Part shown: positions 19,297 to 55,754 of the stretch, in pieces | How positions within the stretch are numbered: the first letter of the stretch is position 1 | How the letters are laid out: each line of letters opens with the position of its first letter | Assembly: GCF_000004075.3 (NCBI RefSeq) | Contig: NC_026660.2 | Location: 5,456,001-5,520,000, forward strand | From: Cucumis sativus | Taxonomy: Eukaryota; Streptophyta; Magnoliopsida; Cucurbitales; Cucurbitaceae | Direction: 5' to 3' | Length of the DNA stretch: 64,000 nucleotides | Program-made: the position numbers and the translations under genes | Notes under the pieces: model-generated | The model's database searches: none | What the model was told of the DNA's origin: nothing | What the model saw: the letters and a program-made list of their open reading frames with translations, nothing else

Positions 19297-21727
19297 TCAA
19301 CAAAGGGATCTCTCGTCACGGGGTTCAGCAGTTGTGTTTCGCCTTCTTTGTGCCTTGGATTCATCAATATAGTTTTGGTATAAATATGTCACAAAACCCC
19401 ATATGGCGAGCAGCAAAGCAATGATCTTCACACCATTCATCTTGTCATGGAAAACTACAAGAGCTGCAAGGGGCGTAACAGCTAAAGAGACGGTACTGAT
19501 TGCATTGGAGAACAGAGAAGACACGATGAAAATCAAGCCAACAACACCGACCGAACAAGTCTGCCAAGCAACGGCTGTCCCCACCAATGTCAAAACATAT
19601 GAAACTCGACCTGTACCGAAACTTGCCATTTCCTGAGGCAAACTCTTCCATTCCCCACTACCGAAAAGAGCAATGACAGATACAATCGTGGCAACCAAGG
19701 ATGTATAGATTTGCATTTCCAAGACCACAGAAAAGGTCTCCCTCTTCAAAACCTTTTGAAAGGTAAGCTGCATGAGAGAAAGCAGTAAAGAGTATAATGC
19801 TGAAGCTCCAAGGGAGCTAATGAATCCAATGAAATATTTCGACTTAGAGACTCCAGGAGGACGTTCTGAATCGTCGTTCACAGCTAAAAGTGCAGAAGAC
19901 AAGGAAAGAATAACGACAGAGTTCGAAATTAAAATGGTGAACTTTTGAGAGTTGATGAAGTAGGAAAAAACTGAATTGAAAGCTAATTGGCTGGCACAAA
20001 TAAGTGAGTAAGTGGAGGCAGAAAGGTATAAAAGCCCAGTTGAATACATCCAGTTATCGAGAGCTATAAGGGATCCAAGTGAAAAATAAATCAACAAAAG
20101 AAATAGAATGGAAGGCGGGTTAGTGGAAGTTGAAGTATCCTTGGTGGAACGGAAAAGGAAGAGCGGGATAAAGAGAACTGGGAAGGCAGCAGTTTGAACA
20201 ACAGTTGCCATCCATTTACTGTTTCCACCTTTATCATAGTAAAATCTCCCAAGTAAAACAGCAGCAGCTTGACCCACAACGAGGAAAATGATGTTGAGTG
20301 ACACCAAGAACCACCATTGCCAGCGTTTTAGATTAGCTAAAGGCAGTTCATCAACAGAAGCTACCTCTTTATCCAATATTGGTTGTTGGTTATCTGTTTT
20401 TGATATCAGAAAAAACAGTTACTCCAAGAAAGTTCCCAAACAAGAAACTTGGTTGGTTGAAGTCAAATCAAAAGAAGAATGGAATTGATATTGCAAACTA
20501 TGATATTTTGGGTAAAAGGAACAGTCATTGAGGAACTATTTTAAGCTTCAACTAAGACATCAAAGTCTAAGGCAAAGCAGCACAAGTATGGGCACGAGAT
20601 ACAAACATGAATATGATACAACATAGACATGATAATGAGTTATTTTTAATCAAATCTGAGATACAGACACAATAAGGACAAGAAGGAAGTTTAAAGTCCA
20701 TAAACCTACATACTTATCTGCTTAAAACATTCAAGATTGATGTATTTCCCTCTATTATTTTAATCTATATCACTAATTATGTCTATTTATTACGTTCAAT
20801 AAATGTGCAATGTGCGTGAAACAAGTACTATACCTGTATTCAATTTGTACAACTACTGTTAAACACATGTTTAATGCACCAACATGAACCGGAGTGTCAA
20901 ACTAAAGTGTCACTGTTTCATTGAGTCAAATGGAAGAAGGCAGTATCAACAAAGTGAAAAAATTTCAAAGAAATATCATCAGTGAGGCAGAATTGGAGAT
21001 GTTAAAACAAAATAATAATAAAACTCTCGCACATGAAGGCAACGGGAATACAACGAGTTGCAATCTTTTCATAGTTCAACAATTGTAGAGATAGCGAATC
21101 CAACCATCAATCTTCGAGATAGTAACTAGTGTCTTTATCCACTTAACTATGCTCGGATTAACATTTCAATCTCACTCTTTTGAAAAAAAAAACAGAGAAA
21201 GGCCTTCCATTTAATTCAGAAGCCAAGATGTATTGCCTTATGGCTAAGTGAATAAGTCTGCTTAGCATCACAAAGGAACAGTGTAAAACCCAAAAGGAAT
21301 CATTCTTCATATAAGAATGAAGAAATTGCTAACAGAGCTGCTTTGATAAAATCATTGAAATCTCTCATCAGGAATTAATTATAAATGGAAGAGAAACATG
21401 AATGGAGTGTCACTCCAAACAACTCAAACCCAGAATCCCTAACACACATACACACACGAGAAAGAAAAAAGATAACCCATGAAAGTCAAGAACCCAACGC
21501 AAAGACCCAAATGTAAAAGAAGGCGAATTTAAACTCAACTGGGCTTCAGAATCATACCCATAAAGAGAAAAAGTGAAATCTAAACTTGGGAATTCCCCCA
21601 AACGATATCTTAATTTCTCGATTATTTTAAGCCAACCCAAGTAACAACCATTATACTAAATGAAAAAAAAAGAGAAGAAAAAGTGAATCAAATAATCGAG
21701 AGAGAGAGAGAGAGATAAACCTGTCAT
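19297..21727 (-). CDS. Purine permease (PUP family transporter)
   Basis: Proton-coupled plasma-membrane importer family for adenine, cytokinins and related bases, in the drug/metabolite transporter fold. Two coding exons: exon 1 is only 7 nt (21721-21727, ATG ACA G) and exon 2 is 19297-20393, separated by a 1327-nt intron. Together they encode 367 aa beginning MTDNQQPILDKE. About ten hydrophobic helices are visible, with the family signature GGNSKW...VQTAAFP at about residues 58-74 and a basic C-terminal tail. The tiny first exon is required because the exon 2 frame has no ATG before the conserved N-terminal region, and CAG|AT at 20394/20393 is a good acceptor in the right phase. A (TC)n run follows the donor on the coding strand. 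The substrate and exact paralog cannot be assigned. Confidence 0.93.
21076..21167 (-). repeat. tRNA-related (SINE-like) element in PUP intron 1
   Basis: On the minus strand the stretch contains a box-A-like CATAGTTAAGTGG, then about 40 nt later a degenerate box-B-like GGTTGGATTCG. Order and spacing suit a tRNA-derived pol III promoter or SINE head. It does not fold into an obvious intact tRNA, so it is called a relic. It lies in the same orientation as the host gene. Confidence 0.35.
21698..21716. repeat. (GA)n microsatellite beside the PUP exon 1 donor
   Basis: A GA dinucleotide run; on the coding strand it is a TC tract a few nt inside intron 1. Confidence 0.9.
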
Positions 21728-23808: not shown

Positions 23809-26800
23809 ATGATGTACTGCTACTTCTTTCTTCTCTTTCTTCTTTTCACTTACTGTGAATTCCCAACAACATCATATCATCATGTACCAGTGTGTGATCC
23901 TAATTAAAGCTTAGCATTACTTCAATTCAAGAATGACTTTTCCTTGGACACACTATCAAGTTCTTGGAGTGAGTGGTATATACATCCACGAACTTTCAAA
24001 TGGAATCAGACCACAGATTCCTAGCTTGTTCATGGGATGGTGTGGAGTGTGATGACAAAAGAGAAGGCCATGTTGTTGGTCTTCATCTTGGCTGCAGTTT
24101 TCTCAATGCAAGTACTCTTCATCCCAACAACACCCTTTTCACCCTCTCCCACCTCAAAACCTTGAATCTTTCTTACAATCATTTGGCAGGATCTCCATTT
24201 TCACCTCAATTCGGAATGCTTTCAAACTTGAGAGTTTCTGGATCTTTCGGGGTCATCTTTCAAAGGTCATGTTCCATTACAAATTTCACATTTGTTTAAA
24301 TTGGTTTCCCTCCATCTTTCTTATAATTCTGATCTCAGTTTTTCAAACCTGGTTATGAATCAACTTGTCGATAACATAACCAATCTAAGGGAACTTGGGC
24401 TTGCTGAAACCAATCTTTCATGCATCCTACCCACTTCTACTTTCTTGAACTTCTCTCTCTCTTTAGAGTCTCTTGATTTTTTTTCATCTGAGTTGTCCGG
24501 GAATTTTCCAGACCACATTTTTTGTCTTCCAAATTTGCGCGTCTTAAAGCTTCGTTGGAATACTGAGTTGAATGGACATCTGCCCATGTCTAATTGGAGT
24601 AAATCCCTTCAAATTTTGGATCTTTCTTTCACTAATTTTTCAGGAGAGATTCCCAACTCCATTGGTGAAGCCAAGGCATTGAGGTACTTAGACTTTAGTT
24701 ACTGTATGTTTTATGGTGAAATTCCTAATTTTGAAAGTCATTCTAATCCTATGATCATGGGTCAATTAGTACCCAATTGTGTTCTGAATCTCACCCAAAC
24801 ACCTTCTTCATCTACATCATTTTCAAGTCCTCTTCATCATGGAAATATTTGTTCAACAGGACTTTCAAATCTTATCTATGTGGACTTGACACTTAACTCA
24901 TTCACGGGTGCTATACCCTCTTGGCTATACTCCTTGCCTAACTTAAAGTATTTGGATCTCTCTAGAAACCAATTCTTTGGTTTCATGAGGGATTTTAGAT
25001 TCAACTCATTAAAGCATCTCGATTTAAGTGATAACAATTTGCAAGGTGAAATTTCAGAGTCTATTTATAGGCAACTCAATCTTACATATTTAAGATTGAA
25101 TTCCAATCATTTGAGTGGGGTTTTGAATTTCAACATGCTGTCGAGAGTCCCAAATCTATCGTGGCTTTACATTTCCAAGAACACCCAACTTTCAATATTC
25201 TCAACTACACTTACGCCTGCACATCTTCTTGACATAGGAATAGATTCCATCAAATTAGAAAAAATCCCTTACTTCTTGAGAAATCAAAAGTACTTGTCCA
25301 ACCTAAACCTTTCAAATAATCAAATTGTAGAAAAAGTTCCTGAGTGGTTTTCTGAATTGGGTGGTTTGGTTAAACTAGATCTATCTCATAATTTTTTGTC
25401 CTTAGGAATAGAGGTGCTACTTGCTTTGCCTAATCTGAGGAGTCTCTTTCTTGATTTTAACTTGTTTAATAAGCTACCTGTTCCAATGTTGCTATCATCG
25501 TTTATGGAAGATTTTATTGTTTCAAATAATAAGGTTAGTGGAAATATCCATCCTTCAATCTGCCAAGCCACCAAACTCACTTTTTTGGATTTGTCCAATA
25601 ATAGCTTAAGTGGTGAACTTCCACCTTGTCTCTCCAACATGACTAATCTATCCCATTTGATATTGAAAAGTAACAATTTGTCTGGAGTTATTACCATACC
25701 TCCAAAGATTCAATACTATATTGCTTCAGAAAATCAGTTGATTGGAGAAATCCCTCTTTCAATTTGCCTTTCACTTGACCTCGCCATCCTCAGTCTGTCA
25801 AATAATCACATGAATGGAACAATTCCACCATGTCTCACAAACATCAGCACTTCTCTTTCAGTATTGAATTTAAAAAATAACAACTTTAGTGGTTCCATTC
25901 CTACATTTCCTTCAACGGGATGTCAATTGAGCAGCGTTGATTTGAAGAACAACCAAATCGAAGGAGAATTTCCAAAGTCATTGCTGAACTGTGAATATCT
26001 TGAAGTTTTGGATATTGGAAATAACAACATGACAGTTTATGTGTAATTCTCACTTAAACCCATAAAACCACAAATAGATTCATGCCTTACTTAGTTTTTT
26101 TCTCTTATATAATTTAAATGGAGATATCGATCGCAATAAATCTGAGATTTTATTTTTATTCTATTTTGACAGGATACTTTCCTTATTGGTTAAAAACTGC
26201 TTCAAGTTTGCTACTTCTCATCCTTTGATCCAATCAATTTTATGGTGATCTTATCAACAATTCCAGCTTCAATAAAAATTCTTTCTGAAACCTACAAATT
26301 ATTGATCTTTCTCACAACTATTTCAGTGGACCATTGCCTTTAAATTTTTTTAACAACATGAGAGCCCTCCAGGAAATGGAAATCCAACCCAACTCTTTTC
26401 TTGAAAATGTTTTCTATCAAGATTCAATTGGGATATCATTAAAAGGGATAGAACAACAGTTGGAAATAAATCTTTTGATATTTAAAACTATTGATCTATC
26501 ACCCAATGGTATTAATGGAGAGATACGGAAGGAAATTGGAATGTTGAAGTCTCTTGTAGGTTTGAACCTTTCACACAATAAGCTTACAGGTGGGATTCCT
26601 ACATCACTTGGCAATTTAAACAGTCTAGAATGGTTGGATCTTTCATGAAATCAATTGTTTGGTAATATTCCTTCTGAGTTGGTTGATCTTACGTTCTTGT
26701 CTCATTTGAATCTTTAATTCCCAAAATCATCTGTCCGGACCAATTCCTAAAGGCAAGCAATTTGATACTTTTGAGAGTTCTTCCTACCTTGGAAATCTTG

Positions 26801-27077
26801 GACTCTGTGGAAATCTTCTACCAAAATGTGATGCAGATCAAAATGACCATAAACCTCAACTGTGGCATGAACAAGAAGAAGACAACAGCTTGGAGAAAAG
26901 AATTTGGGTGAAAGCTGTGTTCATGGGTTATGGATGTGGAATGGTATTTGGAGTATTTATTGGATATGTTGTTTTCAAATGTGGGAAACCGATGTGGATT
27001 GTGGCAAGTGGAAGGCAAAAAAGTTCAAAAGATCCAAACATCTAGGAGACGTTGTAAGGCTATGAAAAAAAAATGAT
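23809..27077 (+). pseudogene. Full-length RLP (Cf-9-type LRR receptor-like protein) pseudogene
   Basis: The unit covers the whole RLP layout from signal peptide to cytoplasmic tail, but it is broken many times. Its ATG (23809 or 23812) is followed by a stop at the CDP motif (CCTAATTAA where intact copies have CCTAAACAA). A frame shift lies near DCC/WDG and another near 24235 (AGAGTTTCTGGAT for AGAGTTTTGGAT). The exon 1 donor is lost at 26036 (CAG|TT instead of CAG|GT). Exon 2 has stops at about 26226 and 26646, indels near 26710, and a 2-nt loss near 27005. A long open stretch of LRRs remains at 24292-26046, much of it near-identical to the intact gene at 42034. It cannot make a normal receptor, but may donate sequence to its neighbours. 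Confidence 0.93.
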
Positions 27078-31702: not shown

Positions 31703-31763
31703 GGCTCTTAACTCACATCAGATTTTGCAAACCACTATCTTGTATGAATTACAGCAAGTAGTG

Positions 31764-34700
31764 ATGATCATCATGTTCTACTTCTTTCTTCTCTTTCTTT
31801 TCCTCTCTAATATTTCACTTACTGTTAGTTCCCAACATCATCATCATCATCTTCTACTGTGTCATCCTCAACAAAGCTTAGCATTACTTCAATTCAAGAA
31901 TGCTTTTTCCTTGGGTGCGCCATCAAGTTATTGCAGTAAGTCGTATCCAAGAACAACAACATGGAATGAGAGCACAGATTGCTGTTTATGGGACGGCGTG
32001 GAGTGCGACGACCAAGGACAAGGCCATGTGGTTGCCCTTCATCTTGGTTGCAGTTTACTCCAAGGAACTCTTCATCCTAACAGCACCCTTTTCACTCTTT
32101 CCCACCTCCAAACCTTGAATCTTTCTTCTAACAATTTTTCAGGATCTCCCTTTTCACCTCAATTTGGAATCCTTTCAAACTTGAGAGTTTTGGATCTTTC
32201 CAGGTCCTTTTTCAAAGGCCACGTTCCATTACAAATATCACATTTGTCTAAATTGGTTTCCCTTCATCTTTTTTATAATTTCGATCTCACTTTTTCAAAC
32301 ATGGTTATGAATCAACTTGTTCTTAACCTAACCAATCTAAGGGATCTTGGGCTTGCTCATACAAATCTATCACACATCATACCCACTTCTAATTTCATGA
32401 ATTTCTCTCTCTCTCTAGAGTCTCTTGATCTTTCTTATTCCTACTTGTCTGGAAATTTTCCTGACCACATTTTCAATCTTCCAAATTTACATGTGTTAGC
32501 ACTTCAATATAACCTTGAGTTGAATGGACATCTGCCCACGTCTAATTGGAGTCGATCCCTTCAACTTTTGGATCTTTCTTTCACTAATTTTTCAGGAGGG
32601 ATCCCAAGCTCCATTGGTGAAGCCAGAGCCTTGAGGTATTTGGACCTTGGATCCTGCAACTTCAATGGTGAAATTTCTAATTTCGAAATCCATTCTAATC
32701 CTTTGATCATGGGTGATCAATTAGTACCCAATTGTGTGTTCAACATCACCAAAAGAGCACCTTCTTCATCTAATTCATTTTTAAGTACTCTTCTTCCTGG
32801 AAATGTTTGTTCAACAGGACAGCTTTCAAATCTTACCCATTTGAACTTGGCAAGCAACAATTTCACTGGTGTCATCCCCTCTTGGCTATTTTCATTACCA
32901 ACCTTAAAATTTCTGAATCTATATCATAACAATTTCTCTGGTTTCATGAGGGATTTTAGGTCCAACACATTGGAGTATGTTGATGCAAGTTTTAACCAGT
33001 TCCAAGGTGAAATCCCCTTGTCCGTCTATAGACAAGTGAACCTTAGAGAGTTAAGATTATGCCACAACAATTTGAGTGGGGTTTTTAATTTAGACATTGA
33101 GAGAATCCCAAGTCTAACATCTCTATGTGTTTCCAACAATCCCCAACTCTCAATATTCTCATCCAAACCTATCTCCTCAAATCTTGAATTCATTAGTATG
33201 TCATCCGTCAAATTAAACAACAATGTCCCCTACTTTTTAAGATATCAGAAGAATTTGAGCATTCTAGAACTTTCTCATAATGCTTTGTCCTCAGGAATGG
33301 AGCATCTCCTCTCTTTGCCTAAGTTAAAGAGATTGTTTCTTGATTTTAATTTGTTCAATAAGCTACCAACTCCAATATTGTTGCCATCAATTATGGAATA
33401 TTTTAGTGTTTCAAATAATGAGGTAAGTGGAAACATTCATCCTTCAATTTGCGAAGCCACCAATCTTATATTCCTTGATTTGTCAAATAATAGCTTTAGT
33501 GGTACAATTCCACCTTGTCTCTCCAACATGTCTAATCTAAACACTTTGATATTGAAAAGTAACAACTTTTCTGGGGTTATTCCCACACCACAAAATATTC
33601 AATACTACCTTGCTTCAGAAAATCACTTCACTGGAGAAATCCCATTTTCAATCTGCTTTGCAAACAACCTTGCAATCCTTGGTCTTTCCAATAATCACTT
33701 GAGTGGTACACTTCCACCATGTCTCACAAACATAGCTTCTCTGTTAGCATTGAATCTTCAAGCTAACGACATTTCTGGAACCATTCCCTCAACATTTTCA
33801 ACATCATGTAAGTTAAGAAGCCTTGACTTGAGCAACAACAAACTAGAAGGAGAATTGCCAACCTCCTTGTTGAACTGTGAGGATCTCCAAATTTTAGATG
33901 TTGAAAATAATAATATAACAGGTCACTTCCCCCATTGGTTGTCTACTCTCCCGTTACGAGCTCTTATCTTTCGATCAAATCGATTTTACGGTCACCTCAA
34001 CAACTCATTCAACACATACTCTTTTTTCAACCTACGAATCCTTGATCTATCTTTCAATCATTTTAGTGGCCCATTACCATCAAACTTGTTTCTAAACTTG
34101 AGAGCCATAAAAAAATTTGATTTGATACCTCAATTTGATGATTACCTTTATCCTGAATGGTTTTTCTTCGGCTCCTCGGATAATTACCAAGATTCCTTGT
34201 TATTAACACTAAAAGGATCGAACCAAAGGGTGGAAAGAATACTGAAGGCATTCAAAGCTATGGATTTATCAAGTAATGATTTTAGTGGAGAGATACCAAG
34301 TGAAATTGGGATACTTCGGTTTTTGGGAGGTCTCAACATTTCCCACAATAAGTTAACAGGTGAAATTCCTACGTCGTTGGGAAATTTGACAAACCTCGAA
34401 TGGTTGGATCTTTCTTCAAATGAACTCAGAGGTCAGATCCCTCCTCAGTTGGGTGCTCTTACATATCTCTCTATTTTGAACCTCTCACAAAATCAATTGT
34501 CAGGACCAATTCCTCAAGGAAAACAGTTTGCTACTTTTGAGAGTTCTTCATACGTTGGAAATATTGGACTCTGTAACTTTCCTCTGCCAAACTGTGGTGG
34601 GGATGAAACAGGGAATAGCCATGAATCTCAATTAGTAGATGATGATGATGAAGATGATAGTTTATCAAAAGGGTTTTGGTGGAAAGTTGTATTCTTGGGG

Positions 34701-34835
34701 TATGGATGTGGAATGGGCTTTGGAATTTTTGTTGGATATCTTGTTTTTCGAATTGGAAAACCTGTGTGGATTGTAGCAAGGGTGGAAGGCAAACCAAGGA
34801 GGAACAACTACAGAGCTGCTGGAAGAAATAACTAA
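31764..34835 (+). CDS. LRR receptor-like protein, Cf-9/RLP type (intronless member)
   Basis: Plasma-membrane LRR receptor without a kinase; this class signals through adaptor kinases such as SOBIR1, often in pathogen recognition. It encodes 1023 aa in one exon. Order: signal peptide (about 1-23), His-rich linker, LRRNT with CHPQQSLALLQFKNAF and TTTWNESTDCCLWDGVEC, a long run of about 24-residue LRRs with an interrupting island, the LSGPIPQGKQF ... GLCNFPLPNC cap, an acidic stretch (VDDDDEDDS), a membrane helix with GxxxG spacing (YGCGMGFGIFVGYLVF), and a short basic tail after GKPVWIV. ATG 31764 is the first in-frame ATG. Unlike the three intact paralogs it has no intron at the ITG codon (about 33931) and lacks one LRR unit near 33250. 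Ligand unknown. Confidence 0.95.
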   Translation: MIIMFYFFLLFLFLSNISLTVSSQHHHHHLLLCHPQQSLALLQFKNAFSLGAPSSYCSKSYPRTTTWNESTDCCLWDGVECDDQGQGHVVALHLGCSLLQGTLHPNSTLFTLSHLQTLNLSSNNFSGSPFSPQFGILSNLRVLDLSRSFFKGHVPLQISHLSKLVSLHLFYNFDLTFSNMVMNQLVLNLTNLRDLGLAHTNLSHIIPTSNFMNFSLSLESLDLSYSYLSGNFPDHIFNLPNLHVLALQYNLELNGHLPTSNWSRSLQLLDLSFTNFSGGIPSSIGEARALRYLDLGSCNFNGEISNFEIHSNPLIMGDQLVPNCVFNITKRAPSSSNSFLSTLLPGNVCSTGQLSNLTHLNLASNNFTGVIPSWLFSLPTLKFLNLYHNNFSGFMRDFRSNTLEYVDASFNQFQGEIPLSVYRQVNLRELRLCHNNLSGVFNLDIERIPSLTSLCVSNNPQLSIFSSKPISSNLEFISMSSVKLNNNVPYFLRYQKNLSILELSHNALSSGMEHLLSLPKLKRLFLDFNLFNKLPTPILLPSIMEYFSVSNNEVSGNIHPSICEATNLIFLDLSNNSFSGTIPPCLSNMSNLNTLILKSNNFSGVIPTPQNIQYYLASENHFTGEIPFSICFANNLAILGLSNNHLSGTLPPCLTNIASLLALNLQANDISGTIPSTFSTSCKLRSLDLSNNKLEGELPTSLLNCEDLQILDVENNNITGHFPHWLSTLPLRALIFRSNRFYGHLNNSFNTYSFFNLRILDLSFNHFSGPLPSNLFLNLRAIKKFDLIPQFDDYLYPEWFFFGSSDNYQDSLLLTLKGSNQRVERILKAFKAMDLSSNDFSGEIPSEIGILRFLGGLNISHNKLTGEIPTSLGNLTNLEWLDLSSNELRGQIPPQLGALTYLSILNLSQNQLSGPIPQGKQFATFESSSYVGNIGLCNFPLPNCGGDETGNSHESQLVDDDDEDDSLSKGFWWKVVFLGYGCGMGFGIFVGYLVFRIGKPVWIVARVEGKPRRNNYRAAGRNN

Positions 34836-35079
34836 GCTTTGTATTTGATCATATATTCAATTACCAATAATGCTAATGTTAAGTTCTACTGCACCCACGT
34901 TTTTTTTTCTTTCATTTAACAAATAAATGTTTACTTCTATTTCATAGTTGTAAATTGATGATTGCAATATATCATAGGGTTTGAAATACATTTTTTTTTT
35001 TTTTTGTATTTTATAAATATTTTCATAAGTTTTGTATTCTTTCTTTCTATTTCTACCTTTCAAATCCTATATATAAATT

Positions 35080-35235
35080 ACTTGACTTTGAAGATGACTA
35101 AGTTTGAGTCTTCTTCTTTAATTTTTGGAGAAAAATAGCTAACGCATTTAAAATCTATATAGAGAAACTTCTACACCCATAAGTACACGAACATGTGGTT
35201 TGATGGCACTTTCTACACGCCATCCTTTGCAGTAA
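35080..35235 (+). promoter_or_regulatory. RLP-type upstream block before the deleted RLP fragment
   Basis: Strongly matches the block at 41265-41425 upstream of the RLP gene at 42034: GACTAAGTTTGAGTCTTC, GGAGAAAAATAGCTAACGCA and ATATAGAGAAACTTCTACAC occur in the same order. It is a retained promoter-side duplicate; regulatory role inferred only from repeated conservation. Confidence 0.6.
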
Positions 35236-35282: not shown

Positions 35283-36103
35283 TGATTATAATTATGTTCT
35301 CAGTTTTTCAAATGTGGTTATGAATCAACTTGTTCGTAGCTTAACCAATCTAAGGGATTTTTGACTTACTGAAGTAAATCTTCATGACCTTAGTCCCACT
35401 TCAATCCTCAACTTCTCTCTCTTTTTACACTCTCTTGATCTTTCTTCAAGTGGCTTGTTTGAGAATTTTCCAGACCACATTTTCAGTCTTCCAAATTTAC
35501 ATGCGTTAATACTTAAAGATAACAATAAGTTGAATGGACATCTACCCATGTCTAATTGGAGTAAATCCCTTCAAATTTTGGATCTTTCTCAAACTAAATA
35601 TTCAGGAGGGATTCCCAGCTCCATTGGTGAAGCCAAGGCATTGAGGTACTTAGACCTTTCGAAACTAATTTCATGGGCCAACTAGTACCCAATTGTGTTT
35701 TTAATCTCACCCAAGGACCTTCATCATCTAATTCATCTGTTGCAAGTTTGCGAGTTCTCATCCTTGGATCCAATCAATTTTATGGCCATATCAGCAATCC
35801 CTTCAACGGAGGATTCTTTCTTAAGCCTACAAATTATGGATCTTTCTCACAACTATTTCAGTGGACCATTGCCTTCAAACTTTTTTTAACAACATGAGAG
35901 CCATCCAGGAAGATGTCAAAAACCAACCCAACACTTCTCGTGAAAGTACTATTTACTATCAAGATTCAATTATGGGATATCATTAAAAGGGATAGAACAA
36001 CATTTGGAAAGAAATCTTTTCATATTTAAAACTATTGATCTATCAAGCAATGGTTTTAATGGAGAGATACCAAAAGAAATTGGAATGTCGAAGATGTTTT
36101 AGT
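35283..36103 (+). pseudogene. Internally deleted RLP pseudogene fragment
   Basis: Begins inside the LRR region (CTCAGTTTTTCAAATGTGG), lacking the signal peptide and LRRNT, and ends at the KEIGM motif before the C-terminal LRRs, so it has no membrane segment. It carries an in-frame stop (GATTTTTGA where RLP4 has GATCTTCGA), a small deletion near 35665, and a large internal deletion near 35740 that joins LVPNCVFNLTQGPSSSN directly to SLRVLILGSNQFYGH. The missing part corresponds to about 1.45 kb of the gene at 42034, including its intron. Sequence is closest to that gene. Not functional. Confidence 0.9.
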
Positions 36104-37079
36104 TAAAGAAAGTTTATTGATTTAGGTAGCGTGGTTCCAGTAATTACAATTTTATATAGAAATTTTTATATCATATAGTTTTATATTTTATATAAAAGTA
36201 TAGGAACATATCTACACCAGTCTTTGGCCCACTATAATTAAATTCCTAATAAATGAAAAAGTTAAAATATTGACCCACCTTATCTGCATGGAGAAATTGA
36301 ATTCTCTTCTATATTTAATTTTTTCATCTAAATTCTTTAATACTTGACTTTGACTTTGAAAATGTGTAAGAATCAGTCTTCTTCTTCTTCTTCTTCTTCT
36401 TTAATTTTTGGAGAAAAAATATCAAACATTTAATATCTACATAGAGAAATTTCTACACCTAACTACCCTGATGTGTGTGGTGCACTTAAGAGATTATTAA
36501 TGAATTTAGGTTGGCCTCACTCTCTACACCATCGCCCTGTCTCCAAGTTTCGAAAACATTTATTTATCTGTTTGTTTTGGTAAAGAGATTACAGTAAATA
36601 TAAGGTTTAAGATGATTGTTTATATTTTCATTTTGCATATAGTTTATACTGGGAGTTATTATTCAAAGAAACCCTGCAACTGAAAAAATTCAACCAACTA
36701 AACTGATCAAAAGTATATAAGGATTGAGTTGACTGTAATATTAGTGTTATGTTTAATTCGGGTTGGATTGGATTTCAATTTTGTAGGAATTGATCGGTTT
36801 GATTATGTTTTTGAATTCAAAGAATTAAAAAGTTGCCAGTTTCCAACTTTAATTGAATCTGCTCTCTCTCTCACTTTGAAAATTTTCTCACTTAATATTT
36901 TTCTACATTTTAAGAGCTAGCTTAAGTGGACAAAGATAAAATATTGAAATTATTTACCAAATATAGCCAAATCTATGGAAACTCTATTTAGTCTATCCCT
37001 AACAATTCCCCAACTATTAAAAGAGTCAATAACTCACATCAGATGTTGTGTAAACGGCCATTACATATCCTCCATTAGC
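36104..37079. other. Upstream region of the RLP gene at 37080
   Basis: Shares several blocks with other RLP upstream regions: a (TTC)n tract at 36377-36401, then GGAGAAAAA, CTACATAGAGAAATTTCTACACC, GATGTGTGTGGTGCACTTAA, and finally the AACTCACATCAGAT leader near 37030. An in-frame ATG at 36975 would add 35 residues, but that stretch covers leader sequence conserved among paralogs and is unlikely to be coding. Confidence 0.6.
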
Positions 37080-40000
37080 ATGGCATTGTTGTTGTATGAA
37101 TTAAAAGTAGTGTGCATCTTCTTTCTTCTCTTTCTTTTCCTCTGTAATTTCGTTGTAAATTCCCGTCATCATGATCATGTGTGTGATCCTAAACAAAGCT
37201 CAAAACTACTTGAATTCAAGAATGCCTTCTCCTTGGAGATGACATGGCCATCATTCTTTTGCATTGGGTTGTCTCCACCAACAACCACATGGAATGAGAG
37301 CACGGATTGTTGTTTATGGGACGGCGTGGAGTGCGACGACGAAGGACAAGGCCATGTGGTTGGTCTTCATCTTGGCTGCAGTTTACTCCAAGGAACTCTT
37401 CATCCTAACAATACCCTTTTCACTCTCTCCCACCTCCAAACTTTGAATCTTTCTTATAACTATATGGATGGATCTCCATTTTCGCCTCAATTTGGAATGC
37501 TTACAGACCTGAGGGTTCTGGATCTTTCTCGGTCTTTCTTCCAAGGGAACGTTCCTTTGCAAATATCACACTTGACCAACTTAGTTTCACTTCATCTTTC
37601 TTATAATGACGGTCTCAGTTTTTCAAACATGGTTATGAATCAACTTGTTCATAACCTAACCAATCTGAAAGATCTTGGACTTGCTTACACAAATCTTTCT
37701 GACATCACACCCTCTTCGAATTTCATGAATTTCTCTCTCTCTTTAGAATCTCTGGATTTGTCTGCATCTATGTTGTCTGGGTATTTTCCAGACTACATTT
37801 TAAGTCTTAAAAATTTTCATGTGTTAAAACTTTATCATAACCCTGAGTTAAATGGACATCTGCCCAAGTCTAATTGGAGTAAATCCCTTCAAGTTTTGGA
37901 TCTTTCTCAAACTCATTTTTCAGGAGGGATTCCCAACTCCATTAGTGAAGCCAAGGTCTTAAGTTACTTAGACCTTAGTGACTGCAACTTCAATGGTGAA
38001 ATTCCTAATTTTGAAACTCATTCTAATCCTTTGATCATGGGTCAATTAGTACCCAATTGTGTTTTGAATCTCACCCAAACACCTTCTTCTTCTACTTCAT
38101 TTACAAATGACGTTTGTTCTGATATACCATTCCCAAATCTTGTTTATTTGAGTTTGGAACAGAACTCATTCATTGATGCCATACCTTCTTGGATATTTTC
38201 ATTGCCTAACTTAAAATCTTTAGATCTAGGTAACAACAATTTCTTTGGTTTCATGAAGGATTTTCAATCCAACTCATTAGAGTTTCTTGATTTCAGTTAT
38301 AACAACTTGCAAGGTGAAATCTCAGAGTCTATTTATAGACAACTCAATCTTACATACTTAGGATTGGAGTACAATAATTTGAGTGGTGTTTTGAATTTGG
38401 ACATGCTGTTGAGAATCACAAGGCTTCATGACCTTTTCGTTTCCAATAATAGCCAACTTTCAATACTATCAACCAATGTTAGTTCCTCGAATCTTACATC
38501 CATTAGAATGGCATCCCTCAATTTAGAAAAAGTCCCCCACTTTTTGAAATATCATAAGAAGTTGGAATTTCTAGATCTTTCAAACAATCAAATTGTAGGA
38601 AAAGTTCCAGAGTGGTTTTCCGAAATGAGTGGTTTGAATAAACTGGATCTATCTCATAATTTCTTGTCCACGGGAATAGAGGTGCTCCATGCTATGCCTA
38701 ATCTGATGGGAGTCGATCTTAGTTTCAACTTGTTCAATAAGCTACCTGTTCCCATATTGCTACCATCAACAATGGAAATGCTTATTGTTTCTAATAACGA
38801 GATTAGTGGAAATATTCATTCTTCAATCTGCCAAGCTACCAACCTTAATTATCTTGATTTGTCCTATAACAGCTTCAGTGGTGAACTTCCATCTTGTCTC
38901 TCCAACATGACTAATCTACAAACTTTAGTATTGAAAAGTAACAACTTTGTTGGACCTATTCCCATGCCGACACCAAGTATTTCGTTCTATATTGCTTCAG
39001 AAAATCAGTTTATTGGAGAGATCCCTCGTTCAATTTGCCTTTCAATTTACCTCAGAATCCTCAGTATTTCAAATAATCGCATGAGTGGAACAATTCCACC
39101 ATGTCTTGCAAGCATCACCTCACTTACAGTTTTGGATTTAAAAAACAACAACTTTAGTGGCACGATTCCAACATTTTTTTCGACAGAATGTCAACTGAGC
39201 AGACTTGATTTGAACAACAACCAAATAGAAGGAGAATTGCCACAATCATTGTTGAACTGTGAATATCTTCAAGTTTTGGATCTCGGAAAAAACAAAATCA
39301 CAGGTTATATAAATCTCTCTTGCACATAAATTTATAGCTTTCTTAGGAAAAAATGCTTTTCAAGATCATTATTGTTTATCATTTGATAAGAAATGTGTAA
39401 AATCCACTGTAGAAGTGTTTCAGAAGCTTACCTCATTTTTCTTAAATCACTTATTTTCAAAGTTAAACGTAAAATCAAACACACCCTTAATATTTTATTA
39501 ATCTGTTATGCAATAATACTGATAGGATATTACATCTATAGGTTTGACTATATTTAGATTCTTTCTCTTATATAATTTAAATCTATATATCACAATAAAT
39601 TCTGAAATTTTATTCATGTTCTTAACAGGTTATTTTCCTTCCCGGTTAAAACCTGCTTTGTATTTGCAAGTTATCATCCTTCGGTCTAATCAATTTTACG
39701 GTCATATCAACGATACCTTCCATAAAGACTCTTTCTCAAACCTACGGATTATCGATCTCTCTCACAACAATTTTGATGGACCATTACCTTCAAATTTTAT
39801 AAAGAACATGAGAGCCATCAGGGAAGTGGAAAACAGACGTTCCATCTCTTTTCAAGAACCAGAAATCCGCATTTACTACCGGGACTCAATTGTGATATCA
39901 TCAAAAGGAACCGAACAGAAATTTGAAAGAATTCTTTTGATATTGAAAACCATTGACTTGTCCAGTAATGATTTTAGTGGAGAGATACCAGAGGAAATTG

Positions 40001-40536
40001 GAATGTTGAGGTCTCTAATAGGTTTGAACCTTTCACACAATAAGCTGACAGGTAGGATTCCTACATCAATTGGCAATTTGAACAATCTGGAATGGTTGGA
40101 TCTTTCTTCAAATCAATTGTTAGGTAGCATTCCTCCTCAGTTGGTTGCTCTTACATTTCTCTCATGTTTGAATCTCTCACAAAATCAGCTGTCAGGACCA
40201 ATTCCAGAAGGCAAACAATTTGATACTTTTGAGAGTTCATCCTACCTTGGAAATCTTGGACTTTGTGGGAATCCTCTACCAAAATGTGAACATCCAAATG
40301 ACCATAAATCTCAAGTGCTACATGAAGAAGAAGAAGGTGAGAGTTGTGGAAAAGGAACTTGGGTGAAAGCTGTGTTTATTGGATATGGATGTGGGATTAT
40401 ATTTGGAGTATTTGTTGGATATGTTGTTTTTGAGTGTGGGAAACCTGTGTGGATTGTGGCAATTGTGGAAGGCAAGAGATCTCAAAAGATCCAAACATCT
40501 AAGAGCTCTAGGGGTTATAGGAAAAGAAATAAGTAG
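37080..40536 (+). CDS. LRR receptor-like protein, Cf-9/RLP type (RLP3 of this cluster)
   Basis: Two exons, 37080-39303 and 39629-40536, joined at ACA G|GT with a 325-nt intron, give 1043 aa. Layout: signal peptide MALLLYELK...NFVVNS, LRRNT with CDPKQSSKLLEFKNAF and TTTWNESTDCCLWDGVEC, tandem LRRs, the intron falling in the LRR codons NKITG|YFPSRL, C-terminal LRRs ending LSGPIPEGKQFDTFESSSY, cap LCGNPLPKC, acidic EEEEGES, a GxxxG membrane helix (YGCGIIFGVFVGYVVF) and a short basic tail. ATG 37080 was chosen over the in-frame ATG at 36975 because it begins the signal peptide directly, at the same place as in the gene at 47274. If the intron were kept, translation would stop nine codons into it, giving a secreted partial ectodomain. 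Likely a pathogen- or peptide-sensing receptor; ligand unknown. Confidence 0.93.
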
Positions 40537-41981: not shown

Positions 41982-42033
41982 GGCTGAATAAGTGAAGCCA
42001 GATTGTGTAAACCAGGCTAACTGTCGTGTCCAA

Positions 42034-45000
42034 ATGGCAAGGTTGTATGAATTAGAACAAGTAGTGATGATGATGTGCTACTTCTTTCAACTTCTCTTTC
42101 TTTTCCTATCTAATAATTCAGTTGCTGTGAATTCCCAACATCAACATCATGATGATAATGTACTGTGTGATCCTAAACAAAGCTTAGCATTACTTCAATT
42201 CAAAAATGCATTTTCCCAAAGGATATTCTCAGAATACGGGGAAGCTTATTATCGAACTTCTACATGGAATGAGAGTAGAGATTGCTGCTCATGGGATGGC
42301 GTTGAGTGCGATGATGAAGGACAAGGCCATGTGGTTGGTCTTCATCTTGGCTGCAGTTTACTCCAAGGAACTCTTCATCCTAATAACACCATTTTCACTC
42401 TCTCCCACCTCCAAACCTTGAATCTCTCTTACAATGATTTTTCAGAATCTCCAATTTCCCCTCAATTTGGAAGGCTTACTAACTTGAGGGTTTTGGATCT
42501 TTCCAAGTCTTACTTTAAAGGGAAGGTTCCCTTGCAAATATCCCACTTGTCTAAATTGGTTTCCCTTCGTCTTTCTTATGATTATCTTCTAAGCTTTTCA
42601 AATGTGGTTATGAGCCAACTTGTTCGTAACCTAACCAATCTAAGGGATCTTCGACTTATTGAAGTAAATCTTTATCGCCTTAGTCCCACTTCATTCTACA
42701 ACTTCTCTCTCTCTTTACACTCTCTTGATCTTTCTTTCTGTTACTTGTCTGGGAAATTTCCAGACCACATTTTCAGTCTTCCAAATTTACATGTGTTAAT
42801 ACTTAAAGATAACGATAAGTTGAATGGATATCTACCCATGTCTAATTGGAGTAAATCCCTTCAAATTTTGGATCTTTCTCGAACTAGATATTCAGGAGGG
42901 ATTCCCAGCTCCATTGGTGAAGCCAAGGCTTTGAGGTACTTAGACTTTAGTTACTGTATGTTTTATGGTGAAATTCCTAATTTCGAAAGTCATTCTAATC
43001 CTATGATCATGGGTCAATTAGTACCCAATTGTGTTCTGAATCTCACCCAAACACCTTCTTCATCTACATCATTTTCAAGTCCTCTTCTTCATGGAAATAT
43101 TTGTTCAACAGGACTTTCAAATCTTATCTATGTGGACTTGACACTTAACTCATTCACGGGTGCTATACCCTCTTGGCTATACTCCTTGCCTAACTTAAAG
43201 TATTTGGATCTCTCTAGAAACCAATTCTTTGGTTTCATGAGGGATTTTAGATTCAACTCATTAAAGCATCTCGATTTAAGTGATAACAATTTGCAAGGTG
43301 AAATTTCAGAGTCTATTTATAGGCAACTCAATCTTACATATTTAAGATTGAATTCCAATAATTTGAGTGGGGTTTTGAATTTCAACATGCTGTCGAGAGT
43401 CCCAAATCTATCGTGGCTTTACATTTCCAAGAACACCCAACTTTCAATATTCTCAACTACACTTACGCCTGCACATCTTCTTGACATAGGAATAGATTCC
43501 ATCAAATTAGAAAAAATCCCTTACTTCTTGAGAAATCAAAAGTACTTGTCCAACCTAAACCTTTCGAATAATCAAATTGTAGAAAAAGTTCCTGAGTGGT
43601 TTTCTGAATTGGGTGGCTTGATTTATCTAGATCTATCTCACAATTTTTTGTCCTTAGGAATAGAGGTGCTACTTGCTTTGCCTAATCTGAAGAGTCTCTC
43701 TCTTGATTTTAACTTGTTTGATAAGCTACCTGTTCCAATGTTGCTACCATCGTTTACGGCATCCTTTAGTGTTTCAAATAATAAGGTTAGTGGAAATATC
43801 CATCCTTCAATCTGCCAAGCCACCAAACTCACTTTTTTGGATTTGTCCAATAATAGCTTAAGTGGTGAACTTCCATCATGTCTCTCCAACATGACTAATC
43901 TATCCTATTTGATATTGAAAGGTAACAACTTGTCTGGAGTTATTACCATACCTCCAAAGATTCAATACTATATTGTTTCAGAAAATCAGTTCATTGGAGA
44001 AATTCCTCTTTCAATTTGCCTTTCACTTGACCTCATCGTCCTCAGTCTGTCAAATAATCACATGAATGGAACAATTCCACCATGTCTTACAAACATCAGC
44101 ACTTCTCTTTCAGTATTGAATTTAAAAAACAACAACTTTAGTGGTTCTATTCCGACATTTCCTTCAACGGAATGTCAATTGAGCAGTCTTGATTTGAATG
44201 ACAACCAAATAGAAGGAGAATTGCCAGAATCATTGCTGAACTGTGAATATCTTAAAATTTTGGATATTGGGAATAACAACATAACAGGTTATGTAATTCT
44301 CACTTAAACCCATAGCCATAAATATATTCATGACCTCACTTATATTTCATCTCTTTTATTTATTATTTCAAAAATTTATTAATTAAGTATTACACACAGC
44401 TTTGACTATGTATAGTTTTTTTCTCTTATATAATTTAAATGGAGATATCGATGACAATAAATCTGAAATGTTATTCATATTCTATTTTGACAGGCTCCTT
44501 CCCTTATTGGTTAAAAACTGCTGCAAGTTTGCAAGTTCTCATCCTTCGATCCAATCAATTTTATGGCCATATCAACAATTCCTTCATCAAGAATTCTTTC
44601 TCAAACCTACAAATTATTGATGTTTCTCACAATTATTTCAGTGGACCATTGCCTTCAAACTTTTTTAACAACATGAGAGCCATGAGAACCACGAGAGTCA
44701 TCAGCCTTAATACATCCGAACGCAAATATTTTTCAGAAAATACTATTTACTATCAAGATTCAATTGTGATAACATTAAAAGGTTTTCAACAAAAGTTGGA
44801 AACAAACATTTTGATTTTTAGAACTATTGATCTGTCAAGTAATGGTTTTAATGGAAAGATACCAAAGGAAATTGGAATGTTGAGGTCTCTGGTAGGTTTG
44901 AACCTTTCACACAATAAGCTTACAGGTGAAATTCCTACATCACTTGGCAATTTGAACAATTTGGAATGGCTGGATCTTTCATCAAATCAATTGTGCGGTA

Positions 45001-45410
45001 ACATTCCTCCTCAGTTGGTTGGTCTTACATTTTTGTCCTATTTGAATCTCTCACAAAATCATCTTTTTGGACCAATTCCTAAAGGCAAACAATTTGATAC
45101 TTTTGAGAATTCTTCCTACTTTGATAATCTTGGACTTTGTGGGAATCCTCTACCAAAATGTGATGTGGATCAAAATGGCCATAAATCTCAACTGCTACAT
45201 GAAGTTGAAGAAGACAGTTTGGAAAAAGGGATTTGGGTGAAGGCTGTGTTCATGGGATATGGATGTGGGATTGTATCTGGAATATTCATTGGATATCTTG
45301 TTTTTCATTATGGAAAACCTGTGTGGATTGTGGCAATTGTGGAAGCCAAAATAGCTCAAAAGATCCGGTCATCTAGGAGGAGTTACAGGCCTAGGATAAG
45401 AAATAACTAG
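42034..45410 (+). CDS. LRR receptor-like protein, Cf-9/RLP type (RLP4 of this cluster)
   Basis: Two exons, 42034-44287 and 44494-45410 (206-nt intron, join ACA G|GC), encode 1056 aa. Order: N-terminal MARLYELEQ, hydrophobic signal segment, His/Asp-rich linker, LRRNT with CDPKQSLALLQFKNAF and STWNESRDCCSWDGVEC, LRRs, intron inside NNNITG|SFPYWL, terminal LRRs with HLFGPIPKGKQF, cap LCGNPLPKC, acidic EVEEDSLE, GxxxG membrane helix (YGCGIVSGIFIGYLVF) and basic tail after GKPVWIV. ATG 42034 is the first in-frame ATG; the open frame extends upstream without one. About 700 nt (42913-43620) are almost identical to the pseudogene at 23809, while flanking parts differ more, suggesting conversion. Retaining the intron adds only a few residues before a stop. 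Role inferred from family: surface immune receptor. Confidence 0.94.
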
Positions 45411-47273
45411 GAGGTATGTTTTGTTTTTTTAATTTATGTAAAACTTAAGTTCCTTCCACACAAAATGTATGCACTTCATAGTTATATTACTTCCATCTCT
45501 ATTAGTTTATATATATTGGGTTGTCTCAATTTTATTAAGTATGAACTTACTTTTGTTTTTAAACACTTGCTAGTAATTAATTCAAATGTTTGTGTATAAA
45601 ATATGAAAACCGTGTGAGGGAAGAAATGGTATTAAGTGTATTTATGCTGTGTGATGCATATATAGGGGTCTGATTGTGGCTGAGAAGCTCAAAATCCGTA
45701 ATCCAATTGACTGTTTATGAAGACAGCTCATTACAAATGGTTACTACGTGGAGTACAAAAGCCAGTCCCAATACACAGCAGATACAAAGCTTCTCGTGTT
45801 TTGGGTTCTCAGCTATCTTGTTTGTACACAATATTCACTTTTGTTTTGAGCTTAATTATCTCCAGCTCAATGACTCCTTTGTAAACGTTTCTTGGTACTG
45901 TATGATACTTTTGGCTTAGGGAGTGATGAGGGTGACAAAACTATCTATGTTTACTTAGTTGAGATATTCAATCTTTTCTTAAATATGCATGATTGGAAGA
46001 GAGACTCATAGCATAACCATAACCTGTTGAGTCCAATGATCGACAAATCCTTAAGAATCAATACCTATAATTTTTCAGATAAGGAAAAAAATTCCAAATA
46101 GGAATTGCATAATGTGAGACATGATGCGTAAAACATCACAGAACAAGATGACAAACATTTCATGAGACAAGATGAAGAACAAGGTTATCCAAGAGTCACG
46201 AACCACACTTCAATTGAAAAAATATAGCCAAGTACACCAAAGCTCTAACAATATTGTAGTACAATAGGGTGGAGAGATTTAAATCATTGACTTTTTGATC
46301 GCTATATATGCTAGGTGGCTGATCAGTCAATTCGCTATAGTTTTTTAGATAGTGCATTTAAATCTTTTGAATTCAAAGTGGTGTCAATTAATGTGATAGA
46401 AAGACGTTTTCATATTGTTTGGTGAAGAAATTAAAGTCCTCAAAATTCAAAAGTTAAACTATTTAAATTAAATTCGATTGCTCCCATACGTAAATTAAAT
46501 TCTCATATATCAGTTACACATTATGGGCGCTCATCAATCAGGCAGCGTCAGTTTTGGGATCAAACCGTTGTCTGCTATGACCTCTAATATGAATAAGTTG
46601 GTCGTTCTTCATTGGTTTTACCAGCTTCAATAGTTCAAGCTTGATCTTTCAGATTGCCTTATTCACCCGTAAGGTACATAAGTCGTGAAACAATCCACTT
46701 TAGAGTGAGTCGTCATTGGTAGGTCCACTTAATATCTCAACAAGGTTGACATCTTCGATGAGTTCACATTATTAAATAGAGAGAACTCTTGATGGGGACA
46801 ACAAAACCTTTGAAATCTATAGAGATTCAAATCCAATTGATGGGGACAACAAAACCTTCACATATTTTCATAGAATCATAATGGTTTTATATCTTGTCCA
46901 CCTTGGACATAAATTTATTTCTTTGGTCATCAATCTTCTTCTTTGTTTCTTTCTGTTTATCTAAGAAAAATACCAAACATTTGAAATCTATAGATGAGGG
47001 TAACAAAGGATGTGTGAACTTGGTTGAAACATCTTTTGATCCCTCCATATATAGAGAAATATTTACACCCAACTACCCTGCAGTGCATTAAAGAGATTAT
47101 AAATGAATTGGGTTGATGGCAGCTTCTGGACCATCGCCCTATCTCCGTGTTTTGAAAACATTATATCAGTCACAATTTTATTTTTAGATTTTTCATTGTA
47201 TAGTATAGAATTTGGAGATTAAAACATATTCTCGGCTAACAATTGTAAGCGACTATCTGTGTCCTACATTAGC
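45411..47273. other. Intergenic region within the RLP cluster
   Basis: Contains the RLP4 3' flank, a GC-richer unidentified block at about 46520-46790, two copies of a 22-nt direct repeat (46787-46862) and the RLP5 upstream block from about 46970. Short open frames here have no family motifs. Confidence 0.5.
46787..46862. repeat. Pair of 22-nt direct repeats
   Basis: TTGATGGGGACAACAAAACC followed by TT occurs twice about 49 nt apart, around 46790 and 46839, with different sequence in between. Unknown origin. Confidence 0.8.
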
Positions 47274-50200
47274 ATGGCATTGTTGTATCAATTACAAGTG
47301 TGCATCTTGCTTCACTTTCTTTTTCTCATTTCAGTACTTGTGAATTCCCATCATCTGTGTCATCCTAAAGAAAGCTCAGCATTGCTTGAATTCAAGAACA
47401 CCTTTTGGAAACAAGACTTGGGTGATGAGTTTGTGGGGCAACCTTCTTATCGACCTTATTCCACATGGAATGACAGCACAGATTGTTGTTTATGGGACGG
47501 TGTGGAGTGCGAGGACGACGAAGGAGAAGGTAGCCATGTTGTTGGCCTTCATCTTGGCTGCAGTTCACTCCAAGGAACTCTTCATGCTAACACTACCCTT
47601 TTCACACTCTCCCAACTCAAAACTTTGAATCTTTCTTATAACAATTTTTCAGGATCTCCATTTTCACCTCAATTTGGAATTCTTACTAACTTGAGGGTTT
47701 TGGATCTTTCCTACTCTTCCTTCCAAGGTCATGTTCCATTACAAATATCTCATTTGTCTAAATTAGTTTTCCTTGATCTTTCTTATAATTACGATCTCAG
47801 TTTTTCAAATGTGGTTATGAATCAACTTGTTCATAACCTTACCAATTTGAGGGATTTTGGGCTTGCTGAAACAAATCTTTTAGACATCACACCAATTTCT
47901 AATTTCATGAATCTCTCTCTCTCTCTGGCGTCTCTTGATCTTTCTTCATCTTACTTGTCCGGGAATTTTCCAAACCACATTTTGGGTCTTCCAAATTTGA
48001 AGGTGTTAAGGCTTGATGATAACCCTGATTTGAATGGACATCTATCCATGTCTAGTTGGAGTAAATCTTTAGAAATTTTAGATCTTTCTCGAACTAATTT
48101 TTCTGGAGAGATTCCTAGCTACATTGGTGAAGCCAAAGCCTTAAGATACTTAGACCTTAGTTTCTGCAATTTCAATGGTGAAATTCCTGAATCAATTGAA
48201 AACCTTACACAGCCTCCTAATCTCCAAATCCATTCTAATAGTTCCCATTGTTTTCTCAACCTCAACCAACAAGTTTCATCTAATCCATTTCAAAATAATG
48301 TTTGTCTTCACACACTTTCAAATATTATTCATTTGGACTTGAGAAATAACTCATTCATTGGTGGCATACCCTCTTGGCCATATTCTTCCCCTAGCTTAAA
48401 ATATTTGGATCTCTCTAATAACCAATTCTTTGGTTTCGTGAGGAATTTTAGATCTAACTCGTTAGAATATCTTGATTTAAGTAATAACAAACTGCAAGGT
48501 GAAATTTCAGAGTCTATTTATAAGCAACTCAATTTTACATATTTAGATTTGGGGTCCAATAATTTAAGTGGGGTTTTGAATTTGGACATGTTGAGAATCC
48601 CAAGTCTATCGTCGCTTGACATTTCCAATAATCCCCAACTTTCAATTTTCTCAACTACAGTTACCCCTGCAAATCTTCTTTTCATACGAATGGATGGCAT
48701 CAAATTAGAAAAATTCCCTTTCTTTTTGCAAAATCAAAACAACTTGAGCTACCTAGACCTTTCAAATAACCAAATTGTAGGGAAAATTCCTGAGTGGTTT
48801 TCTGAATTGGGTGGTTTGAGTGTTCTGCTTTTATCTCATAATTTTTTGTCTTCAGGAATAGAAGTGATCCACACTATGCCTAAACTGATGATGGTCTATC
48901 TTGATTTTAACTTGTTCAATAAACTACCTGTTCCCATGTTGCTGCCATCTGTAACGACTTACTTCAGTGTTTCAAATAATGAGGTTAGTGGAAATGTTCA
49001 TCCTTCAATTTGCCAAGCCACCAATCTTAACTACCTTGATTTGTCACATAATAGCTTGAGTAGTGAACTCCCATCTTGCCTCTCTAACATGACTAATCTA
49101 GACACTTTGATATTGAAAAGTAACGACTTTTCTGGAGTTATTCCCATACCACCAAGGATTAGAAACTATATTGCTTCAGAAAATCAGTTTGATGGAGAAA
49201 TTCCTCATTCAATTTGCCTTGCACTTAATCTTCAAATTCTCAGTTTTTCAAATAATCGAATGAGTGGAGGAACAATTCCATCATGTCTCACAAACATCAC
49301 TTCTCTTTCAGTGTTGGATTTGAAAGGTAACAACTTTGTTGGTATGATTCCAACATTTTTTCCTACAGGATGTCAACTGAGCAGCCTTAATTTGAATGAC
49401 AACCAACTAAAAGGGGAATTGCCACAATCCTTACTCAACTGTGAAAATCTTCAAGTTTTGGATTTGGGGAGTAACAAGATAACAGGTTATGTGTTAAATT
49501 TCATCTTTCATTTATTCTTTAATAACAATAATTGGATATTACATGCATATAACTTTATTTTCTGATATAGTTTGAATGGATAGATCACAATAAATCTGAA
49601 ATTGTATTCATATTCTATCTAAGCAGGCCACTTTCCTTATTGGTTAAAAGCGGCTTCAAATTTGCGAGTTCTTATCCTTCGATCAAATCGATTTTATGGC
49701 AATATCAACAATTCGTTCAACAAAGACTCTTTCTCAAACCTACGGATTATTGATCTCTCCCACAATAGTTTTAGTGGACCATTGCCTTCAAACTTTTTTA
49801 AGAACATGAGAGCCATCATGCAAGTGGAAAACAAAAAGTACAGTTCTTATGATGAAAATGAGGTAGGTGATTATTATCAAGACTCAATTGTTATATCGTT
49901 AAAAGGGTTGGATCAAAAGTTAGAAAGAATTCTTTTGATATGGAAAACTATTGATCTGTCATGTAATAATTTTAATGGAGAGATACCAAAGGAAATAGGA
50001 ATGTTGAGGTCTTTAGTAGGTTTGAACCTTTCACACAATAAGCTTAAAGGTGGTATTCCTACATCACTTGGTAATTTGAACAATTTGGAATGGTTGGATC
50101 TTTCTACAAATCAATTAGTTGGTAGAATTCCTCCTCAGTTGATTGGTCTTACGTTTCTCTCCTATTTGAATCTCTCACAAAATCAACTCTCAGGACCAAT

Positions 50201-50534
50201 TCCTCAAGGAAAACAATTTGGTACTTTTAGAAGTCATTCATACTTAGAAAACCTTGGACTCTGTGGGTTTCCTCTAGCAAAATGTGATGCACATCAAAAC
50301 GACCATAAATCTCAACTGCTGCATGAAGAAGATGTGAGTAATTTGGAAAAGGGGATTTGGTTGAAAGCTGTGTTGATGGGGTATGGATGTGGGATGCTAT
50401 TTGGAATATTCATTGGGTATCTTGTTTTTCAATGTGGAAAACCTGATTGGATTGTGAGAATTGTGGAAGGCAGAAGAGCTCAAAAGATCCAAACATGTAG
50501 GAGGAGTTACAGGCATAGGAAAAGAAATAACTAG
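47274..50534 (+). CDS. LRR receptor-like protein, Cf-9/RLP type (RLP5 of this cluster)
   Basis: Two exons, 47274-49485 and 49627-50534 (141-nt intron, join ACA G|GC), encode 1039 aa. Order: signal peptide MALLYQLQVCILLHFLFLIS, LRRNT with CHPKESSALLEFKNTF and STWNDSTDCCLWDGVEC, LRRs, intron inside NKITG|HFPYWL, terminal LRRs with LSGPIPQGKQF, cap LCGFPLAKC, a short acidic segment (EEDVSNLEKG), GxxxG membrane helix (YGCGMLFGIFIGYLVF) and basic tail. The tail motif reads GKPDWIV where the other intact members have GKPVWIV. ATG 47274 is the first in-frame ATG. The intron is open for about 26 codons before a stop, so a retained-intron product would be a truncated ectodomain with a hydrophobic end. 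Last intact member of the array. Confidence 0.94.
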
Positions 50535-55675: not shown

Positions 55676-55747
55676 GATTTCTTTTTTTTGTGTGTGTGTG
55701 AAAGATCTTTGTGTATATTATGTTTGTTCATTAAGTGGGAATGATGG

Positions 55748-55754
55748 TTTTATA
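55748..55754 (-). promoter_or_regulatory. TATA box of inhibitor copy 2
   Basis: TATAAAA on the minus strand about 75 nt upstream of the start codon. Confidence 0.5.

Follow-up and report, generated by a model that had tools for sequence, protein, structure and literature searches.

Probable gene conversion from an intact LRR receptor-like protein gene into a broken neighbour in a cucumber gene cluster

A tandem cluster of receptor-like protein genes

The window analysed here covers 64,000 nucleotides of Cucumis sativus contig NC_026660.2 (5,456,001-5,520,000) and contains a cluster of LRR receptor-like protein (RLP) genes at 23.8-50.6 kb. Six tandem units of this family, all on one strand, follow each other in the order A, B, f35, C, D, and E (Table 1). 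Units C, D, and E are open after splicing of a phase-1 intron, and B is open without it. Two further family copies, L5 and L8, lie on the same contig ~21-35 kb beyond the end of the window, and a dispersed copy, L6 (L041, C2:6896500-6903500), sits on contig 2, another chromosome, and is broken by frame breaks of its own. Outside the cluster, the minus strand of the window carries a 359-aa ORF at 19297-20376, which we take to resemble a purine permease, and three small related ORFs at 51554-58741, which presumably resemble plant invertase/pectinesterase inhibitors.

The ORF of unit D runs from a GTG at 41992, with the first in-frame ATG at 42034. Its Pfam matches comprise LRRNT_2 (5.8e-10), LRR_8 (1.8e-37), and LRR_1 (1.9e-35); unit B likewise matches LRRNT_2 and LRRs, and no kinase is found among the Pfam matches in any of the four scanned stretches (threshold for D exon 2: E 0.001). 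By eye, the translation of D has a hydrophobic N-terminus, a putative signal peptide, and a hydrophobic stretch followed by a short basic tail, the former being a putative membrane-spanning segment. With an LRRNT_2 cap, many LRRs, a short tail, and no kinase, D would be classed as a Cf-type RLP. Among solved structures, the matches of D exon 1 are generic plant LRR receptors, with GSO1 (6s6q, 9.3e-96) as the best, and an LRR receptor-like protein (7drb, 1.8e-60). These structural matches add nothing on exchange between A and D.

Table 1 RLP units and shared A-D tracts, in window coordinates.
Feature	Position	Strand	Basis
Unit A, broken RLP gene	23812..27060	+	aligned to D, C, E, and B; intron remnant 26036-26172
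Unit B, intact RLP gene, no intron	31725..34835	+	single ORF; Pfam LRRNT_2 + LRR
f35, internally deleted RLP fragment	35286..36093	+	matches to D and A
Unit C, intact RLP gene, intron 39304-39628	36975..40536	+	open spliced frame
Unit D, intact RLP gene, intron 44288-44493	41992..45410	+	spliced frame with terminal stop only
Unit E, intact RLP gene, intron 49486-49626	47259..50534	+	open spliced frame
Young near-identical tract in A, probable recipient	24657..25364	+	5/708 mismatches to D
Young near-identical tract in D, probable donor	42909..43616	+	same A-D alignment; 99% in genome search
Older A-D block on A, intron remnant included	25365..26366	+	75/992 mismatches to D (7.6%)
Lesion-free part of A	24239..26035	+	lesion list; ORF 24292-26046 of 584 codons, open frame checked

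Unit A is an unprocessed (duplicated) pseudogene that combines several disabling lesions with a retained intron. Alignment to its paralogs places in-frame stops at 23905, 26226, 26286, and 26646 and frameshifts at 24022, 24238, 26714, and 27008, while a changed base at 26036 removes the intron donor. All nine of these clear lesions fall outside 24239-26035. None of them is common to B, C, D, E, L5, or L8 in the alignment; L6 has indels of its own near A positions 24022 and 26646. The count of nine omits two compensating indels at 23845 and 23876 (12 bases together), with which it rises to eleven, and neither count takes in the indels at 23812 and 27073, the two ends of the alignment.

Mosaic divergence between units A and D

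In a self-comparison of the window, D 42095-44359 matches A 23825-26110 at 89.4% overall. A binned mismatch profile taken from the six-sequence alignment of A, B, C, D, E, and f35 resolves this value along the unit. Mismatches between A and D number 13-28 per 100 columns in the eight bins of 23858-24656, 0-2 in the seven bins of 24657-25356, 3-9 in the seven bins of 25357-26056, and 9-27 in the ten bins of 26084-27060. Maximum-likelihood segmentation of the A-D mismatches, for which BIC reaches its minimum at seven segments, the largest number tried, yields successive segments at 23840-23943 (18.3%), 23989-24656 (19.5%, 128/656), 24657-25364, corresponding to D 42909-43616 (0.7%, 5/708), 25365-26366 (7.6%, 75/992), and 26403-27060 (14.7%, 96/651), together with two short and doubtful ones at 23944-23988 (68.6%) and 26367-26402 (58.3%). 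The binomial probability of five or fewer mismatches in 708 is 3e-41 at a rate of 14.7% and 3e-18 at 7.6%.

The original prediction had boxed a near-identical tract with about five mismatches at 24661-25370. The tract itself is confirmed, lying between flanks of 19.5% and 7.6%, and the box extends 6 bases beyond its 3' edge; it holds 7/710 mismatches, since the overrun adds those at 25365 and 25369. The contrasts given for the flanking repeats, FTNFSGEIPN against RTRYSGGIPS upstream and SSFMEDF against PSFTASF downstream, are as stated. The downstream rise in divergence had been taken as background and proves otherwise, as 25365-26366 is itself an older shared block at 7.6%, intron included. 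It had also been proposed to follow divergence along the unit, and in the RLP alignment the A-D profile is far from uniform and is not that of a simple duplication.

The near-identity is particular to this pair. In a DNA search of the genome (226.6 Mb in 88 contigs) that scores its best candidates only, the tract is present at 99-100% only in A and D among the matches listed, where the next full-length match reaches 79%. Among the nine pairs segmented, A-C is flat at 19.7%, and apart from an identical run between D and C, no segment below 10% occurs in any pair besides A-D. Our own GENECONV-type permutation test, the kind of test that the original prediction had called for, used seven paralogs (A, B, C, D, E, L5, and L6; L8 was aligned and excluded), 2695 ungapped columns of which 1236 are variable, and 5000 permutations. 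The A-D fragment at 24659-25932 heads the 21 pairs with z 40.2 and a global P of 0.0002, which is the floor of the test (1/5001). Five of the 20 other pairs fall below a global P of 0.05, with z of at most 8.1 (B-C 0.0012, A-B 0.027, A-L5 0.029, D-L6 0.039, and E-L5 0.042), which makes further, smaller exchanges within the cluster plausible; no patch comparable to that of A-D occurs in any of these 20 pairs.

Synonymous sites follow the same mosaic. Between A and D, dS is 0.434 in the 5' flank, 0.028 in the tract, 0.094 in the next block, and 0.300 in the 3' flank, and this collapse is confined to A-D among the 11 pairs computed. Within the tract, dS between D and the other copies stays at 0.42 (C), 0.30 (E), 0.40 (L5), and 0.55 (B), so constraint is not the cause of the A-D identity, nor does this part of the gene evolve slowly. 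A high-identity tract between flanks that are diverged on both sides, synonymous sites included, is the pattern of interlocus (ectopic) gene conversion, and conversion is the best reading of the A-D patch. The earlier proposal that a pseudogene and an intact receptor gene recently underwent conversion is supported by the sharp patch, the synonymous collapse, the diverged flanks, and the 20 pairs that have no similar patch.

Origin and direction of the shared tract

Similarity between A and D comes in two tiers, with 5/708 mismatches in 24657-25364 against 43/670 in 25365-26034 (Fisher P 2.6e-9). The lower tier extends through the intron, where A and D differ at 15/134 positions; among the six copies compared that carry the intron, the remaining 14 pairs differ by 16.8-31.5%. 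These counts include exon base 26035. Two exchanges between the same pair explain this profile most simply. In the simplest history, an older exchange covers at least 25365-26366 and a younger one 24657-25364, and the younger may have overwritten the left part of the older. Within the older block, seven A-D differences cluster in 23 nt at 25495-25517, and D agrees with E at 6/7 of them; the cluster hints at a further small exchange, and both a micro-exchange and selection at exposed LRR residues are possible causes. Overwriting of the whole of 25365-26034 by a third paralog was considered and rejected, the E-like sites (6/7) being too few for 43 differences. With a plant substitution rate of ~7e-9 per site per year, the young tract would date, as a rough estimate, to half a million years ago by its 0.7% divergence and to about two million by its dS of 0.028.

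The positions of the lesions in A bear on when it died. With nine lesions placed at random, the probability that none falls in 24657-26034 is 0.0066, that none falls in the 708-nt tract alone 0.107, and that a gap this large appears 0.0063; with eleven lesions these values become 0.0021, 0.065, and 0.0014, all of these lesion tests being post hoc and designed once the lesions were known. Given the lesion density outside the tract, the probability of finding none within it is 0.079 with nine lesions and 0.045 with eleven. The stops offer a separate clock. Substitutions in A that postdate the sharing number at most five in 708 nt, and the calculation was run at 3, 5, and 7 per kb, with 3.4-4.8% of random changes to this coding sequence creating a stop codon. 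For the 2371 exonic nt lying beyond the tract, 0.24-0.79 stops are expected and four are seen (P 0.0001-0.009). These are more premature stops than could have accumulated since the sharing of the young tract, and A was thus probably dead before it. The lesions at 26036, 26226, and 26286 lie inside the older block and so presumably postdate the older exchange.

Because A was probably already dead when the tract was shared, D is the probable donor, and a tract taken from an already dead gene would tend to carry lesions. Once conversion is granted, transfer from D to A is likely, though not proven. The f35 fragment contributes one site: of the eight sequences aligned at 24678, none but f35 shares the base of A, and D has the same base as L6; such a single site may be homoplasy. 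Upstream of the tract, f35 has 31/333 mismatches to D versus 69/333 to A, and at the 72 sites there where A and D differ it agrees with D at 53, with A at 15, and with neither at 4. Inside the tract, where f35 covers only 120 columns, it has 14 mismatches to D, 16 to C, and 19 to B, numbers that favour neither direction. Measured against other paralogs in flanks and tract, neither A nor D clearly switches partner at the edges. Direction had been called unknown in the original prediction; lesion positions, the timing of the stops, and the f35 site now make D to A likely, short of proof. The same prediction saw in the patch a route for reshuffling LRR surfaces, which is not supported for the live gene, since the evidence leans from D (live) to A (dead) and such a transfer changes the pseudogene only, leaving the live receptor unaltered.

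We thus consider it probable that a stretch of ~0.7 kb encoding LRRs was copied by ectopic conversion from the intact D into an already dead A. D and A are direct-repeat paralogs ~18 kb apart, and a break in A would have been repaired with D as the template and without exchange of the flanks. In this non-reciprocal step A would have been overwritten, and D, the live receptor, would have remained unchanged. The 7.6% block would derive from an older A-D exchange, and the high-identity island that it left may have eased the later strand invasion. A preference of the non-adjacent A and D for each other, with repeated conversions that skip B and C, is rather doubtful. In that case the identity island of the earlier exchange would have made the next one likelier, and the dead A, kept partly fresh by the live D, would be a stored copy open to later read-back into the cluster.

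The divergence pattern is symmetric and by itself compatible with either direction, so that a tract of A could also have been copied into the live D, altering its LRR surface. The lesion-free state of 708 nt in a dead A could have arisen by chance (P 0.045-0.107), but A was probably dead before the sharing, a dead donor would tend to pass lesions on, and at 24678 A has the state of f35, a relative of D; we regard this reverse transfer as improbable. A third paralog, unsampled or since lost, might instead have been the source of the tract in A as well as in D, or the exchange might have been a double crossing-over in place of conversion. Clusters do gain and lose members, and the weaker signals in five of the 20 other pairs (global P <0.05) would fit such traffic; both scenarios need more events, however, and no third copy at ~99% is present among the genome-search matches listed, which makes them more improbable still.

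Misplacement of D reads or polishing into A is a technical explanation to which we give very little weight. If the sequence is that of the cucumber 9930 v3 assembly, it was corrected with Illumina reads (PMC6582320), which would permit such an error. The same source, however, describes an inbred-line assembly with a PacBio sub-read N50 of 10.8 kb, against which a 0.7-kb tract in diverged flanks is short, and the older 7.6% block around the 3' side of the tract is independent of it. The absence of any exchange has next to no probability. Recent simple duplication is ruled out by the non-uniform divergence of A and D, and strong purifying selection on the tract by a collapse at synonymous sites that is limited to A-D among the 11 pairs computed; A, moreover, is broken. 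Conversion from D into A accordingly stays the preferred reading.

Related systems and possible smaller exchanges

Parniske et al. 1997 reportedly described sequence exchange among tandem Hcr9 (Cf-4/Cf-9) RLP genes of tomato. Those genes, like the cucumber units, are tandem kinase-less LRR receptor-like protein genes that exchange LRR patches. The title of that paper ties exchange to new resistance specificities, whereas the likely recipient in the A-D case is a pseudogene and the cucumber cluster is known here from its sequence alone.

Resistance-type genes of plants that lie in clusters, and the pseudogenes among them, are well known to undergo conversion (PMC3113787, PMC3924837, PMC4581296). 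In the coffee SH3-CNL genes, nine conversions between clustered paralogs were detected by the RDP method, with lengths such as 977 and 1258 nt (PMC3113787), close to the 708 nt here; those genes belong to the intracellular NBS-LRR class, and in the parts of the paper considered the conversions are not singled out as live-to-dead. Reviews of MHC and plant R-gene clusters report, in the sections drawn on, conversion between pseudogenes and functional members (PMC3924837, PMC4581296), so that broken members share tracts with working ones as A does with D. The stress in those sections is on benefit to the functional genes, whereas the A-D evidence leans to a pseudogene recipient.

Among the open-licence papers listed, none is on this cluster, judged by titles and abstract openings. 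The A-D pair is a clean example of what is probably live-to-dead conversion among clustered plant receptor genes, and a near-identical patch between a pseudogene and a receptor is by itself no proof of receptor diversification. Trees built from whole genes of the cluster would be misleading, and genotyping with short reads would risk confusing the A and D loci at 24657-25364 and 42909-43616.

Other members of the cluster show irregularities of their own. Towards the N-terminus, C and D do not differ at any of 68 aligned columns (A coordinates 24057-24127), and the permutation test ranks B-C, at 23991-24128, second in strength after A-D; perhaps these similarities reflect another small exchange. 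Unit B is without the phase-1 intron at the exact site where C, D, and E carry one, and L5, L6, and L8 also appear to carry it. The 3' half of B is far more diverged, A-B mismatches rising from 16.2% up to 24855 to 27.3% after it. B may have lost its intron or drawn its 3' half from another lineage; as a source of that half, nothing outside B exceeds 65% protein identity among the matches listed (of 274 found in the genome search).

In the window self-comparison, f35 matches D 42576-42948 at 91% and A 26197-26549 at 86%, and in its 5' part f35 is the closest relative of D. Just upstream of f35, 35037-35211 is 84% identical to the region upstream of D (41229-41412). Because this stretch resembles the upstream region of D, f35 looks like a decayed relative of D.
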